Part shown: piece by piece, positions 13,988 to 64,000 of the stretch
Position numbering within the stretch: the first letter of the stretch is position 1
Layout of the letters: every line of letters begins with the position of its first letter
NCBI RefSeq assembly: GCF_014066305.1
Contig: NW_023501041.1
Coordinates: 310,001 to 374,000, forward strand
Direction of reading: 5' to 3'
From: Letharia columbiana
Taxonomy: Eukaryota > Ascomycota > Lecanoromycetes > Lecanorales > Parmeliaceae
DNA length: 64,000 bases
The notes under the pieces: model-generated
Told to the model about the DNA's origin: nothing
What the model saw: only the letters and a program-made list of their open reading frames with translations
Databases searched by the model: none
Translations under genes and position numbers: made by a program

Positions 13988-16984
13988 TCAATCATATTGG
14001 AAGAGCACGCTGATGCTCTCCCCATGGTGAACTCTCCGGATTGCCTGGATGTTCGTTAATTCCGGCCATAGCGTCACGACTAGATACGGTACCTCTGCGA
14101 ATACATGGCCCACATCGAGCACCTCTAGCTTTGGGCATAGCTTCTCATGCTCCTCCTGGGGTACGCTGTTGGTCACAATGACTCTGTCCAAGGCAGATGC
14201 GTTGATTCTCTCGATGGCATCTCCGCTCAGCCTGTGTCATGTGTCAGCTAGGTCGTGTGGAGGAACGGCGAGTGTTTCGCGTACACTCCATGCGTGATCA
14301 AGGCATAGACCTTCTTGGCGCCTTCTTTCTTCAAAAGCTTAGCAGCCCTCGTGATAGTATTTGATGTGTCTGCTAGATCATCGATGAGGATTGCTGTACG
14401 ATTCGCAACGTCTCCAACAAGCATCATGGTCGCGTTCTGGCGGTCTCTAAAATTTTCATAATCAGCATTGCACTCGTAGCATTTAAGGGGCTTGGAAAGG
14501 CAAGCTTGGAGAATGTAGAAGAGATGAGCAACCCTTCTACGAAACATGACTTTAAAAAGATACTTACGTGATTTTGGTGGGTCGTCGTTCCTGTAGACTT
14601 GGATCAGCCCTCACTTCGCTGTAATTCAAGTATTTATACCTTGTGGATTAAAGCGAAAGGCATTCCCAAACTATCGGCAATGGCAGTGGCTCTCTTGGCA
14701 CCTCCAGCATCAGGGCTGACGACGACGGCCTGTTGGTCTAGACACGGGCTGGAATCAGCACCTGCCTTCGCAAATGGCAAGCCGAGTGTATAGCACTAGC
14801 AAAGATACAGAGATGCGCATGACTCGGAGAGCACATTATTCGGACCGAATTGCGTCCAAGCCTTGTAAGGATTGCTGTCAAAATACTTACAATTTGGGAT
14901 GCTCGTCTGGATATAGCGTTTCAAGATTGGCCGTCCATACCTGCTAAGCCGTCAGCATCTGACCGAACGTTCATCTAGCGGAGTCGTACAAATTGTCCAC
15001 TGGTATGTCCTGATAGCAGTAGTCAGCGAATGCATCTGAACTTTCCTTTGTGTGACCTACGAAAAAACCTTGATACTGAGGGTCGTGAAGATCCATGGTC
15101 TTCAGGATTTGGAAGTCAGCATTTCTTTATTACGTTGAATTCCGAAGAACAGAAAAAGTCAGAGGACTGCAAATCCTCTCAAAACATGTCTTACGGCTCA
15201 AGATATGGTATGTGATTTGGATGAAACACTCCACAAAGTAAACTTACGATGACATGATCGGCGCCGGCACACGTGAGCAGATCAGCAACCAAAGTCCTTG
15301 CATATGTTTAGTTAGAACACCATGATGATCTAGAACTTTGTTCTTACCCCTGGATAAAGTTTTGAGAGTCAGCATTGTCTGTTCCGATAAGGATTTCGAG
15401 TGTTGAGATACATTCAAGGAGCGTTCAGCTTCCAGCCGACATGTCTGTTGACTCATATTTTTGCTCAGAGGTGGAAATGTGGGCTCCAAACTTACTGCCT
15501 GTGAGACCCAAGCCGTATAGCCCGGCCGTGCATGAAAAGTTTCCTTCGAGGAGTTTGAAGATTGGCTTGCATCATCAGTCGATATGTTGAGACGGGTAGA
15601 GATATCAGATTTTGTCGAGTCCATCGTGTTGCTACGCTTAGGATGATGGTTGGCAGAACGAGCGTTGTCCAGCTGCCACTTATTCAGATCCTTATTCAAC
15701 CCGTCTACACCGTCCAATCCCGCTGTCGGGAGTAGGTCTGGATGGGGCGTTGATGGTGTGCTTTCAAACCTTCAAGGAATTGATCAGCATGACTTTTCGA
15801 GGCAATTGCTTAGCCTGGACTTAAGGCTAAGGAGCATAAAAGGTCTCAGGGAATCCTACGATCCGATCGTACCGATCAGATCAATGGAATGATTACTCAC
15901 GAGTAGGCAAAGTTCGGCTTGTTGTAACAATTCGACGCCTTTGACAATGGCGCGCCGCTCTTTGAGTACGGGATGTCTGCGGGTCACTTAGATGCAGATG
16001 TGAGACGAGGTAGGATAAGGATAGGTACCGCTTTGTCTCGAATAAGGAAAGAGCTGTACAGCTATCAGCACTAAAACCAGCCACACAACTTCAAGAGGAT
16101 ACTGACCGGCAGAACTGCAGTAACCTTTCGCGCGGATGCAGTTTTGCAAGCTGATAAGGTTATGAGCAACTCCTGCAAAAAGCCTCGGAATTAGTGTTGC
16201 ATGTTCAAGAAACAGAGCATATAGAACCTGGGTTGAAACAGAACATAGATTCCGAGAATAATTACCATGAGGTTGTCATTCACCTTGCTACGCACAATTC
16301 GAAGTCAGCATTGCTTCTCCAAGCCAAGAATCAGAGTTATAAAGTAGGTTCCGGAAGCAAAAACTCCATTCTGCTCCCGCAACATGTCTTGCGACTCGAG
16401 TCCGGGTTCCATTTGGGAAAGGATCACTCCGAGATGTACGAACTCTGATCCTGATTGGATCTAAGTAGGGTCGGAGTCAACACTGCTTCTTCAAAGCGAA
16501 AAGGTGAGCTATAAGAAAGATGTATGGAGGGAGAAGGAATTTGTTTCCGAAACGCATCTTGCAACTAGAGTCGAGCTCAATGCAGGAGATATTCAAATCG
16601 TTGTGGACATACTATATAAACGTCTTTGCCCTAGAGATATCTGACAGTCAGCAGTGCTACTTCATGGCCAAAACATAGATTAAAAGTCATCTTAGATGCG
16701 AAAGCGGCCTTTTGATATCGATAATTATCTCGATACTCAGCGTGCAGGATCGATGAAGGATTTCATGGGTATTGCGTACCCTAACACTCTCCTTGATCTC
16801 GACTCTAGTTTCGCCAACGCTGAATTTGCTGAGAAGTACTAGCGGTATTTCAGCGCCTTCCCATGACCGTGAAAACGCCTTGAATCGGCTTACCGTTGCC
16901 AGGCGGAAGGCCAAGGTGGTCACAAATGGTTTCTGTGAGCGACGGGTGGGAGCTGCCCCCCAGTACGACGAGGTTGCGGACCAT
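13988..16984 (-). CDS. PRS5: ribose-phosphate pyrophosphokinase (PRPP synthetase), 19 exons
   Basis: Makes PRPP from ribose-5-phosphate and ATP. Exons (complement): 16894-16984, 16780-16838, 16613-16630, 16444-16460, 16266-16287, 16107-16172, 16029-16053, 15901-15976, 15496-15769, 15348-15349, 15248-15296, 15061-15099, 14990-15009, 14891-14940, 14640-14737, 14568-14590, 14285-14446, 14093-14231, 13988-14044. They sum to 1,287 nt, 428 residues, in frame. Motifs across junctions: [121 protein letters not shown]. Exon 9 holds an 85-residue low-complexity insert, as in Prs5-type subunits. Exon 10 is only GG. Donor of intron 4 (GTTCGT) and the 2-nt exon are the least certain junctions. Confidence 0.95.
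14447..14567 (-). repeat. long intron 16, introner-like
   Basis: 121 nt, GTAAGT-TAG. Shares the AAGTCATGTTTCG core and the GCAATGCTGAT branch module with other long introns of this gene; more diverged than most. Confidence 0.5.
14738..14890 (-). repeat. long intron 14, possibly introner-like
   Basis: 153 nt, GTAAGT-TAG. Carries CGAGTCATGCGCATC and a GTGCTGATTCC branch region; similarity to the other long introns is weak. Confidence 0.4.
15100..15247 (-). repeat. long intron 11, introner-like
   Basis: 148 nt, GTAAGT-AAG. The core GAGCCGTAAGACATGTTTTG and 3' module AAGAAATGCTGACTTCC match introns 3, 4 and 9. Confidence 0.7.
15350..15495 (-). repeat. long intron 9, introner-like
   Basis: 146 nt, GTAAGT-CAG. 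The core GAGTCAACAGACATGTCGGC and 3' module ACAATGCTGACTCTC match introns 3, 4 and 11. It abuts the 2-nt exon. Confidence 0.7.
15770..15900 (-). repeat. long intron 8, possibly introner-like
   Basis: 131 nt, GTGAGT-AAG. Only the 3' module (AAAGTCATGCTGATC) resembles the others. Confidence 0.4.
16288..16443 (-). repeat. long intron 4, introner-like
   Basis: 156 nt, GTTCGT-TAG. Contains GAGTCGCAAGACATGTTGCG followed by a purine-rich stretch, and the 3' module GGAGAAGCAATGCTGACTTC. It aligns over most of its length with intron 3. Confidence 0.75.
16461..16612 (-). repeat. long intron 3, introner-like
   Basis: 152 nt, GTATGT-TAG. Contains GACTCTAGTTGCAAGATGCG and the 3' module GAAGAAGCAGTGTTGACTCC, collinear with intron 4. 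Confidence 0.75.
16631..16779 (-). repeat. long intron 2, introner-like
   Basis: 149 nt, GTACGC-TAG. The 3' module GAAGTAGCACTGCTGACTG matches introns 3 and 4; the core is weaker (AAGATGACTTTTAATC). Confidence 0.6.
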
Positions 16985-59287: not shown

Positions 59288-60649
59288 GATCGATTTTGCT
59301 TATTATATATTTAATCTTATTCTTAATATTCTAAAATCTAGATTCTTAATATCTCTATTATCTTATAGTATAACGTATATTAATCTTCTTTACTACTCTA
59401 TAGCTCTTATTTAAAAAATTCGAATTATAAATATTATTATATTAATTAAAGTCGATAAAGCTATTAATATAATAAAATTTCTTATCTTTTATTAACGCGG
59501 GTATAATATATATATTTCTCTCGATATTTATAAGATTATAGAATCGTCGTTTTTTAAGAATTCTTAAATTCCGCGCTATTAATAACTACGCCTTTTTTAT
59601 TTTTACTATATTATAATATTTCTAAATTTATCTATTATATTAATACTTAAATATCTTTATAAAAATATCTTATAAATAAGTCGATTTTTATCTAAAATCT
59701 CTACGGGCTAGATTTATTACTTTTATTATAATTAGTATTTCCCTTATTAGTTTCCTCAAAAAAATTTTATTAATATCGAAGGTCTACTAGTTATATTTAT
59801 AAACTTAAGCGTAATCTCTACGTTATCTTTTTCGAAAGAATTAATTAATAGATTTATAGATAACGACGTCTTTAAATAAGCGAGCTATATTTAGAGAATT
59901 CTTTTCGAGAGTCTTTTAATATCGAATATTAAAATAAATACGAATTAAATATCGACGTACTTATTTATAGTTCGTCTTACGTATATTAATATTATTATCT
60001 CTCTTAAATAAATAATATTTCCTCGATTTTATTCGATTTATTCGAATAAAGGCGATTAGAGCTTTAAGAAAAGTATCTAACTTTAATTATTTAATAACGA
60101 TCTCTATTAATCGCTAATAACGACTATTATAATAATAGATTTATCTTATAATATTACACTTCTTATTATCCGCCTATTAATCTTAGATATAAAAATCTAA
60201 AGAAGTTCTTATCTTAATCTTCTTCTCTTTCTTCTATAATCTCTTAATTATAGATAGTAATACTTCTATATCTTAATACTTAATAAAATTACATATTATA
60301 ATTATCTTCTAATATACGATATCGTAACGTATAATCTATTTAATATAGTTATTATACTTATTTATTAATTTATAATACTTTTTAAAGAATTTAATATACG
60401 CCTTTTCTCTTATTTAAGTAGTTAATTTATCGAATAGATTAAATAATTATATTATTTCGAGTAAGTAACTAATACTATAAAACTTTAAGAAGTTAAAGTA
60501 ATCTTTATTCGTCGTTTTATCTAGAGGTCTATATACTCGAAAAACCTCTTTTAATAAGTTAATCTAAGTTAAGGCCGCGAGTAGATATCGAATAATATTA
60601 TTATTATAAGAACGATATCTTATTAATATAATAAGATTAAGAATAGCGC

Positions 60650-60815
60650 TGTCAGAACCAGCATAGATACGATATCAGTATGGGTGAGGTAGAACGAGGA
60701 TAATAAGGCTACCGAACTATGTATGTGGGAAGGAGGCATGATATAGTAGGAGATGCCTCCGCCAAGGCCCGCTAGCCATAGGGCTGAGTGGTGTGTCAAG
60801 GGTACGCTCGTAACA
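60650..60815 (-). repeat. 3' LTR of the non-autonomous element
   Basis: 166 bp, apparently unmutated. Serves as the reference for the RIPped relatives. Confidence 0.88.
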
Positions 60816-61117
60816 CTACCCCCCCCCTCTCAATAGCCATGGCCCCCATGGCTGGTAGACCGGAGATGCACGCCCATTGCTTGCCCTGTGTCTCCAAACA
60901 TCCATAGTCCGTGTAGGCCTCGACCGGAGAAGATTTGCCGAGGTGTAGTGGTAGTAGTTGAAAACATCGGATCGCATGCTGGTCTTGACTGTGCCATCCA
61001 TGCCTGCCATACCCACATTGTCCTGCAGAGATCCTGGAGATATTGGCTATATCTTGCCTGCGTGCCAGCAAGATTCTCCGAGTTCTTCTCCTTGCCCAAT
61101 CGTCTTGTCATAGTCCT

Positions 61118-61335
61118 CCACTTTTTTCGCCTTCAACACCTACTGGCAGCCTGGCCTGGGAGCTTCACTGTAGATTTGCCCTACGTCTCCCATGCTCTTG
61201 CCATCAAGTTCATCGGTAGAACTGAAGAAAATCCAACGCATGCATGTGTCATCCTCCAACACCTGTTGGCAGCCTGGCCTGGGAGCTTCACTGTAGATTT
61301 GCCCTGTGTCTCCCATGCTCTTGCCATCAAAAATC
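61118..61335 (+). repeat. internal direct duplication, about 85 bp
   Basis: A GGCAGCCTGGCCTGGGAGCT block and its continuation to CTCTTGCCATCAA occur twice (about 61,125-61,208 and 61,256-61,330), differing at only a few bases. Confidence 0.85.
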
Positions 61336-61448
61336 CATCCTCCATTCCATCCTTTGTCTCAACTCAGCCTTGCCATGTCATGCACTTGTCGATTCGTAAG
61401 TTTGGTAAGGAGGTAGGGAAAGAATTGAATGTGGTGAATGCCATTTGG

Positions 61449-61625
61449 TAGCAGGCTCACTATGTGTGTTGTCGACATGCTCAGTGAAGAGGTCGAATCG
61501 TAGTCGTTTCGGGGCTGTTCCCGTCGCCATTGTAGCAGGCTCACTATGAGTGTGTTGTCGACATGCTCAGTGAAGAGGTCGAACGTTTGCTGCCATTGTA
61601 GCAGGCTCACTGTGAGTGTGGGGGT
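61449..61625 (+). repeat. triplicated GTAGCAGGCTCACT module
   Basis: Three copies of GTAGCAGGCTCACTATG, two followed by GTCGACATGCTCAGTGAAGA, spaced about 66-80 bp within the LTR element. Confidence 0.85.
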
Positions 61626-62082
61626 GTTTGTTTGTTATGTAGGTCGTCGTATGTAAGATAGGGCTGGCCGCGGTGTGTGGGTGATCGGCGATGTGGAGGG
61701 AGGTATCTTGGTGTTGATGTAGGTGGATTTGAAGAATTCATGATGTTTTGAATGTAGGTAAGAACGGAGCGGAGAGATCGATGCGGAGCGGAGAAGGATT
61801 TCTTGTATTCGATGTAGGGGAGTCGTTTTTTGATGGATTAGGCTACCGTTGATGATGTAAGTTGTTTAATATAAATTCTTTCGAATAATGTAGGTGGTTT
61901 GTGATTTATATATATGGTGGGGCTTCTATATAGTAGAAATACCCAGCGTTTTCTTTATCAGGCTCGGTCGCTTACTCCGAGCAGAAAGTAAAATATTTAA
62001 TAGCTATTTAGTGACTCTACTATCCTCGAGTATATCCGTTTAAGTTTCTCTTCGCCGAGTATACGAAGGAGCCTTATTATAA

Positions 62083-62248
62083 TGTCAGAACCAGCATAGA
62101 TACGATATCAGTATAGGTGAGATAGAACGAGGATAATAAGACTACCGAACTATATATATAAGAAGAAGGCATAATATAGTAGGAGATGCCTCCGCCAAGG
62201 CCCGCTAGCCATAGGGCTGAGTGGTGTGTCAAGGGTACGCTCGTAACA
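62083..62248 (-). repeat. 5' LTR of the non-autonomous element
   Basis: 166 bp, same length as the other LTR. Nine differences, all G to A on the + strand and all in the first 100 bp; the rest is identical. Confidence 0.88.
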
Positions 62249-62253
62249 AGCGC

Positions 62254-64000
62254 GATCTATATATAGCGTATTCGAATTTAACTTAACTAAACTAAGATCG
62301 ATATAAAGATGATTATTATCGTTCTCTATAAGGTCTAGCCGTTCTCTTCTATTTACTATATTTTCTTATTTAGAGACTTAATATATCTTAAATTAATATA
62401 ATTAGAGATTATTTAAAAGCGAGTATTAAAAAGTTTATTCGTCTTATTCTCTATCTTTATAGCTCTAATATATTTAATTTACTATTTAAGTAGATAGTTT
62501 ATAAATTTCTTAATTATTAAGAAGTATAAGATATTAAAATATTATAGTTAATATATATCGATAGCGAAGTAATTATTAATAAAAGGATAACGATTATAAA
62601 GTATTATATCTCGTAAGTATTTCGGCGTCTTTTTAATATATCTCTTTTATAGTCTTAACTACTCGATTATATACTTAGATATTCGCTTAAAATATAAAGT
62701 TAAAAGATATAATCGCTCTCTTTCTATAGATAAGATTATATATATAGAATAGTATCTATCGCTTAAGATTAAAGTAATTATTATTTATTTCTTATAGTCT
62801 AGTATTATAGTAGTTAATATTAAATAATATCTTTAAATTAGATTATTCGCGTATTATATATTAATACTATATTCGAAGTATTTTTTAATTATTAAATATA
62901 CTTCGTTAGTAGATAATATATCGCGAGAGTATAAGAAATTATCTTTAATTATTAAATCTAAGATATAATAATAGATTTAGATCTTAGCTTTTTTTTTCGT
63001 AATAATTAATATTATTTCTAGAATCGCTATACCCGATCTACTATATATATATCGTATATCTTATTAAAGATTTCTAATCGTAATATAGATCGACTAAGTA
63101 TATTAATTCTTATATATTTAAGAGAGATAAGTTTTATTCGATATTAAAATAATAAGAATAACGATAGAGCTATTAGATAGCTTATTCTACGTTTTTTATT
63201 ACTAATCTATAATATATATCTCGCTATAAACTCTCGCTTTATTAGTATTTCTTTAGCGTATAGATCGATAATATAAGCTTATACTAAAAGATTTATATAT
63301 TAAAAACGCTTTAATAATACTTATAATATCGAAGTAAATAACGTAATATATCTTCGATCTTAATTCGAATTTAAAGTTATAAATTTTAAAAGACTAATTA
63401 ATTTAGCCGCCGTCGATATTATTATTATATATATTCTATATCTTATATCTTAATAATTTCACGTTATTAAAGCTATAATTATCTTAAAATCGCTATAAAT
63501 AAATATTATAAAAGAATTTATTAATATTATCGTCGAAGAGTCTTAATTTAAAAAACTATAGCGCTAGCGTATAATCTTTCTAGAATTTAAATAGATTCTA
63601 AAAATTATTTATATCGAATATCGACTCGACGTTTAACTTAGTTTAATAATTAAATATCGATTTCATTTAATTAAGAGGCTTCGATTCGAATTATAATTTT
63701 ATCGATCTCTTAACGCTTCGCTCTTTTAAATATAATTCTATAGAATTAATTATTAAAGACGAAATTATAATACTATAACTTAAGCTTATTATAGAGATAG
63801 AAGATGCTATTATCTTATTATCTAGATTTATTATTTACACCGCGTTTATCCTCTTTTTCTCTATTTTCTACTTATCTAATTACTACTATAATATCGAATT
63901 CGCAGTTATACCACCTTCGAATAAATATATATCTTCTTCTTTTACGATAATTAGAGTTATTAGATTATTAATATTATTAACTATATCGCGGTTTATAATA
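62254..64000. other. AT-rich RIP-type DNA, nothing recognised
   Basis: Returns to the CpA/TpG-poor composition. No gene and no nameable element. Confidence 0.7.

Follow-up and report, generated by a model that had tools for sequence, protein, structure and literature searches.

Several described systems come close to the introns of Letharia columbiana reported here. Introner-like elements (ILEs) of Dothideomycetes are, according to PMC4457414, hundreds of related spliceosomal introns that lie in unrelated genes and fall into several subfamilies; they have a symmetrical or stable fold, insert exactly into coding sequence, can occur more than once per gene, and decay to ordinary introns. An AG/GY site preference was reported for ILEs by van der Burgt, as told in PMC8469720; it is a preference reported from other species, not one held to define ILEs. 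The sister stwintrons and cropped sister introns of Hypoxylaceae, as portrayed in PMC8469720 and PMC12403724, have terminal inverted repeats (TIRs) or full symmetry, leave no target duplication, are functional on the coding strand only, and lose their symmetry with age. The algal and protist DNA-transposon introners of PMC9860276 are short TIR elements that turn into introns on insertion. The copying mode of fungal introners is unsettled, and two of these sources differ on inverted repeats: PMC9860276 has ascomycete introner families without inverted repeats and without target duplications, and PMC8469720 has symmetrical fungal introns without duplications.

Apart from the AG/GY preference, the Letharia introners share the features just listed with each of these systems, and much of what we describe (symmetry, seamless insertion, coding-strand function, decay, and multiple elements per gene) is already present in this literature (PMC4457414, PMC9860276, PMC8469720, PMC12403724, and PMC3510045). 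They are a member of the known fungal introner-like elements; the member itself is new. Compared by descriptions rather than by family sequences, they differ from ILEs in having a subfamily at C^A sites (C before the intron and A after it), in the rarity of AG/GY, and in their association with exons of 0 to 5 nt. Unlike the Hypoxylaceae elements, they are simple introns rather than [D1,2] twin introns, are present in more copies per genome, and include one subfamily with a base preference at the joint, for which PMC8469720 and PMC12403724 report no counterpart. Unlike the DNA-transposon introners of PMC9860276, they show neither a target duplication nor a borrowed splice site, the element itself carrying both splice sites. 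Neither a C^A preference nor introner-made exons of 0 to 5 nt were encountered in the literature on introners, recursive splicing, and microexons, as covered mostly by freely accessible papers.

The window, that is, the whole 64-kb stretch of DNA that was analysed, contains a PRPP synthetase gene on the minus strand, with its ATG at 16984 and its stop codon ending at 13988. Splicing out 18 GT..AG introns by hand gave a single frame of 428 codons plus stop, with a CDS of 1287 nt and a total of 1710 nt of intron, in agreement with the 18 introns, 1.29 kb of coding sequence, and 1.71 kb of intron of the initial annotation. Its naming of the enzyme was also borne out, as the 428-aa product has Pfam matches to PF13793, PF00156, and PF14572, and residues 4-111 and 217-427 align with ribose-phosphate pyrophosphokinase 2 (PDB 7yk1). 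The residues between 111 and 217 are without counterpart in that kinase, and the alignment spans most exon joints except those of introns 8 and 9. We infer splicing throughout from reading frames and homology. By length, the introns form a short class (nine introns, 48-55 nt) and a long class (nine introns, 93-156 nt), and exons 3, 4, and 5 measure 18, 17, and 22 nt. The predicted features are as follows.

13988..16984, minus strand: PRPP synthetase (ribose-phosphate pyrophosphokinase) gene, 19 exons, 18 introns, 428 aa
16839..16893, minus strand: intron 1, 55 nt, phase 1 (hand splicing)
16631..16779, minus strand: intron 2, 149 nt, phase 0; introner, most decayed copy, 25 bits (splicing and profile)
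16461..16612, minus strand: intron 3, 152 nt, phase 0; introner, 40 bits (splicing and profile)
16288..16443, minus strand: intron 4, 156 nt, phase 2; introner, the gene's best preserved copy, 111 bits, fold z -2.4
16173..16265, minus strand: intron 5, 93 nt, phase 0; hairpin z -3.05, no genome relatives found
16054..16106, minus strand: intron 6, 53 nt, phase 0 (hand splicing)
15977..16028, minus strand: intron 7, 52 nt, phase 1 (hand splicing)
15770..15900, minus strand: intron 8, 131 nt, phase 2; no genome relatives found
15350..15495, minus strand: intron 9, 146 nt, phase 0; introner, 37 bits, groups with subfamily B
15348..15349, minus strand: exon 10, 2 nt (GG); its omission gives a stop four codons past the joint
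15297..15347, minus strand: intron 10, 51 nt, phase 2; adjoins the 2-nt exon (hand splicing)
15100..15247, minus strand: intron 11, 148 nt, phase 0; introner, 55 bits, groups with copies starting GTAAGTYTACT
15010..15060, minus strand: intron 12, 51 nt, phase 0 (hand splicing)
14941..14989, minus strand: intron 13, 49 nt, phase 2 (hand splicing)
14738..14890, minus strand: intron 14, 153 nt, phase 1; no genome relatives found
14591..14639, minus strand: intron 15, 49 nt, phase 0 (hand splicing)
14447..14567, minus strand: intron 16, 121 nt, phase 2; no genome relatives found
14232..14284, minus strand: intron 17, 53 nt, phase 2 (hand splicing)
14045..14092, minus strand: intron 18, 48 nt, phase 0 (hand splicing)

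The first 33 kb of the window hold uninterrupted frames of up to 564 codons, some with Pfam domains. From 32000 to 64000, G+C drops abruptly from about 50% to values that mostly lie at 15-26%, resembling the outcome of heavy repeat-induced point mutation; within this AT-rich block, a G+C-richer island (33-49%) at 60500-62400 carries an ORF in which a segment of about 27 residues is repeated.

Five of the 18 introns are, in our judgment, best explained as independent and mostly old insertions of a genome-wide palindromic introner family with several subfamilies, a reading to which we give a probability of roughly 80%. A common core had been described for introns 3, 4, 9, and 11, and it is visible in their alignment. 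As an exact 20-mer, this core occurs once in the 64-kb window (intron 4), with no second match there at up to 3 mismatches. The 17-mer 3' module, which the initial annotation had placed in most long introns, has three matches in the window at up to 3 mismatches (introns 3, 4, and 11) against 0.17 expected; the family can be demonstrated in 5 of the 18 introns, not in most of the long ones. In pairwise alignments scored against shuffles, the related pairs were i3-i4 (z of 6.8), i4-i11 (6.2), i2-i4 (5.2), i9-i11 (4.4), i2-i3 (4.0), and i4-i9 (4.0). A profile of the introner family scored introns 4, 11, 3, 9, and 2 at 111, 55, 40, 37, and 25 bits, and revealed no further copies in the 64-kb window at an E value of ≤0.01. 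By these comparisons, introns 2, 3, 4, 9, and 11 can be taken as demonstrably one family. It is the profile scores and the shared anatomy that set them apart from shuffles, not crude global identity to the consensus, which at 0.70-0.77 fails to separate the five from shuffled sequence (0.718 ± 0.041).

The family extends well beyond this gene. With intron 4 as the query, 18 other sites were found in the 52.2-Mb genome at 70-86% identity. A search with the majority sequence returned 135 candidates, and the 40 that were scored match the query consensus at 84-92% identity along its full length or close to it. With up to 2 mismatches allowed, the 3' module has 267 genome matches, compared with 1 for the reversed control; the end patterns of subfamilies A, B, and C have 167, 113, and 89 matches, against 11, 2, and 0 for their reversed controls, in counts that overlap and in which a few A matches are the other end of a copy already counted. 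The initial annotation had thought of introner-like elements and had asked for a genome search, a lack of other copies being what would speak against the idea; many were found, with the same ends, core, and branch module, and the classification stands. The domains found in the products of four copy-bearing genes are VPS9, mitochondrial carrier, fungal rhodopsin, and MIP. The best genome copies score up to 157 bits. Among copies at different sites, one pair is 97.4% identical and the next best 92.3%; the former (L022 on C4 and L034 on C21) may be a sign of fairly recent activity.

The genome was sampled rather than covered whole, in regions centred on good copies, so the sampled regions give no genome density. 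None of eight random 5-kb stretches had a copy at an E value of ≤0.05; six of the eight lie in AT-rich DNA, and eight are too few to yield a density figure. These six have 14-26% G+C, like the AT-rich part of the window. Two sampled loci are unusual in structure. At L036, an introner at 1278-1499 has overlapping profile matches (model positions 1-113 and 56-155) with a third copy directly after it, and is either an internally duplicated copy or two merged copies. L024 and L025 (C109 and C77) carry an introner on two contigs with flanks identical as far as printed, and represent either a duplicated segment or a second haplotype contig.

The consensus of subfamily A (155 nt) folds into one hairpin with 55 pairs and -64.8 kcal/mol. 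Of its first 17 bases, 15 pair with the last 17, which places both splice sites in the terminal stem; the CTGAC branch site borders an internal loop, and its A is unpaired. The A1, A2, A3, B, and C consensuses all keep the hairpin, with folds well below shuffles, and individual copies have a fold z below -2 in 45 of the 62 cases tested. Among the five introners of the PRPP synthetase gene, only intron 4 folds beyond shuffles, the other four having z values of 0.0 to 0.6. Single changes in the stem broke pairs 552 times and kept them 279 times, which argues that the hairpin decays after insertion, and we estimate this ratio to be near the expectation for unselected mutation. Paired cells in the stem (80.9%) and double changes (91) exceeded both the means of 300 shuffles (79.3% and 60.5) and the largest values among them (80.1% and 76). 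The relatedness of the copies may explain this excess, and some selection on RNA structure is possible. RNAalifold returned no structure for the 62 copies. In our reading, it is copying and not splicing that requires the symmetry.

The 62 tested copies, PRPP synthetase intron 4 among them, are A-profile matches over nearly the whole length. L038 was left out because it has no AG at the expected end; for the tree, profile matches that scored below 30 bits or lay too close to the end of a locus were dropped. When 60 exon bases from either side were joined exactly, the sense frame was open in 57 of the 62, compared with 44, 48, 47, and 48 for joints shifted by -2, -1, +1, and +2 and with 37 for the antisense strand; an open frame was absent in five. 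This joint test was used because the longest ORF through the joint is a poor discriminator: its spliced median was 180.5 aa against 172.5 aa for the better shifted joint, and the spliced ORF was longer than the unspliced and shifted ones in 37 of 62. The copies sit mostly as sense introns in coding sequence. No target-site duplication of 1-10 nt was seen above shuffles in the 62 copies, and in a scan for duplications at offsets inside the intron, the sole match was one inherent in the invariant ends of the A family.

Where C stood at position -1 in the 62 copies, A followed the intron in 17 of 18 (Fisher P of 2e-8), and 12 of these 17 C^A copies were listed next to one another in the tree, in a run that also takes in one G^G copy. 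It seems that one subfamily inserts almost only at C^A; the rule is absent in subfamilies B (8 copies) and C (7 copies). Protein comparison supports the view that both bases belong to the gene at two such sites, in an aquaglyceroporin (L016), where the alignment to aquaporin-3 is gap free across the joint, and in a mitochondrial carrier (L045), where a Pfam match runs over it. An AG/GY preference was not encountered in the 62 copies, the counts being 2 for AG^GY, 4 for AG^G, and 15 for AG^.

The events suggested by these data would begin with an introner of about 150 bp that brings its own donor, branch site, and acceptor and inserts precisely into coding sequence, in sense orientation and with no duplication of the target. 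Splicing would therefore restore the message. The same genes, PRPP synthetase among them, would be struck repeatedly over time, and copies would lose their symmetry and come to resemble ordinary introns. We infer the mechanism, a cause for the preference for certain genes, and a formerly intron-free state of the sites from these patterns. RNA-mediated or transcription-coupled reverse splicing into DNA probably, if by no means securely, fits better than cut-and-paste; we prefer it because the copies occupy coding exons on the sense strand, with exact joints and no duplication. The hairpin would then serve the copying step. Reverse splicing would not lead one to expect the C^A preference seen in one subfamily.

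Alternatively, the introner could be a MITE-like element mobilised by a trans-acting transposase, with TIRs that carry the splice sites and with selection leaving almost only the sense, exactly spliced genic copies. The long terminal inverted repeats that enclose both splice sites and the target preference of the C^A subfamily favor such DNA transposition, and PMC9860276 holds that most introners spread as DNA elements, with ascomycetes as the outlier. We nevertheless consider it doubtful, given the lack of any duplication in the 62 copies and their mostly coding location, where more intergenic copies would be expected.

It is far less probable that the five are ordinary ancient introns alike only in donor, CTGAC branch site, and acceptor. 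Their profile matches span 116 to 155 of the 155 model positions, and the many genome relatives of intron 4 likewise speak against chance resemblance of splice signals; the idea is contradicted for introns 4, 11, 3, and 9, whereas intron 2 rests on its 25 bits (E value of 3.6e-6). Some pairs within the five are indeed unlike each other, with z values of 1.3 for i2-i9, 1.3 for i2-i11, 2.0 for i3-i9, and -0.2 for i3-i11. The other 13 introns showed no family relation in the tests run, so many of them may be ordinary, and perhaps some belong to the introner family as well. Pairs with introns 5, 8, 14, or 16 and pairs among the nine short introns never gave a z above 3.0. Introns 5, 8, 14, and 16 were also considered as separate families and found only themselves in the genome at an E value of ≤0.1, in a search that skips very common words and is thus not proof that they stand alone. 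Intron 5, with its strong hairpin, may be the last of another symmetrical family.

The introners are clustered. In 64 sampled regions, the PRPP synthetase gene included, there were 135 introners, a count that takes in partial matches and weak ones down to 10.5 bits and treats the duplicated segment C77/C109 as two regions. At least two copies were present in 35 of the 64 regions and at least four in 11, and adjacent pairs were on the same strand in 69 cases and on opposite strands in 2. The presence of related introns next to one another in a single gene had suggested recent, local multiplication, but local multiplication in the PRPP synthetase gene by tandem duplication or gene conversion can be set aside as the least probable reading, since focal and neighbouring copies of the same region are no more alike than permuted ones (identity of 0.5615 versus 0.5605 ± 0.0048; 45 pairs in 26 regions, with the PRPP synthetase gene and the second copy of its locus left out), 1 of 76 copies had its nearest relative within its own region (1.5 expected), and the gene's own copies rank 5th to 110th of 111 in identity to one another, are never closest relatives, and group with different subfamilies elsewhere in the genome. 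The claim of recency fared no better, with scores of 25-111 bits against up to 157 elsewhere and four of the five folding like shuffles. In the tree listing, intron 11 falls with the GTAAGTYTACT copies, intron 9 lies close to subfamily B, and intron 4 is placed among A2-like copies; from this placing and the sibling ranks, the gene seems to have gathered members of a mixed pool over time. A naive comparison (0.535 within versus 0.597 between regions) had hinted that copies within a gene avoid likeness, an effect that was gone under matched permutation.

Recursive splicing at 0-nt exons and microexons are known phenomena, and the Letharia introns offer similar arrangements. Introns 9 and 10 of the PRPP synthetase gene have their own donor and acceptor each, with GG between them; intron 10 is outside the five family members found by profile. 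Just one frame is open through exon 9, and the reading frame and the stop that follows without GG demand the 2-nt exon 10. Two introners lie end to end, 0 nt apart, with the joint within a VPS9 match (L036), and at L081 neighbouring introns are 0 nt apart within a fungal rhodopsin match. A 1-nt exon lies within a mitochondrial carrier match (L045) and a 5-nt exon within an aquaglyceroporin (L016). A candidate 1-nt exon at L079 was not counted, as the frame is open with or without that base. For the 1-, 2-, and 5-nt exons, each neighbour needs separate removal because the frame must be kept; the 0-nt pairs could go stepwise, and their joint removal as one intron would be predicted to yield the same message. 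Unlike the known cases, those in Letharia seem to arise by introner insertion beside another intron. They may reflect either insertion favoring splice junctions or the survivors of random insertions.

It is possible, if rather unlikely, that all of this reflects an introner with a subfamily-specific target choice (C^A) that returns repeatedly to genes and lands at or near splice junctions, creating back-to-back pairs and exons of 0 to 5 nt that are spliced in order. The copying mechanism is testable in the Letharia genome because it holds hundreds of copies, subfamilies, clear inverted repeats, no duplication found, and, in one subfamily, a two-base preference, and the 1-, 2-, and 5-nt exons offer a direct test of the way in which adjacent introns are treated by the spliceosome. 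If the tentative reading were true, fungal introners would have a sequence-specific, seamless integration reaction, and intron gain would be a route to recursive splice sites and microexons.
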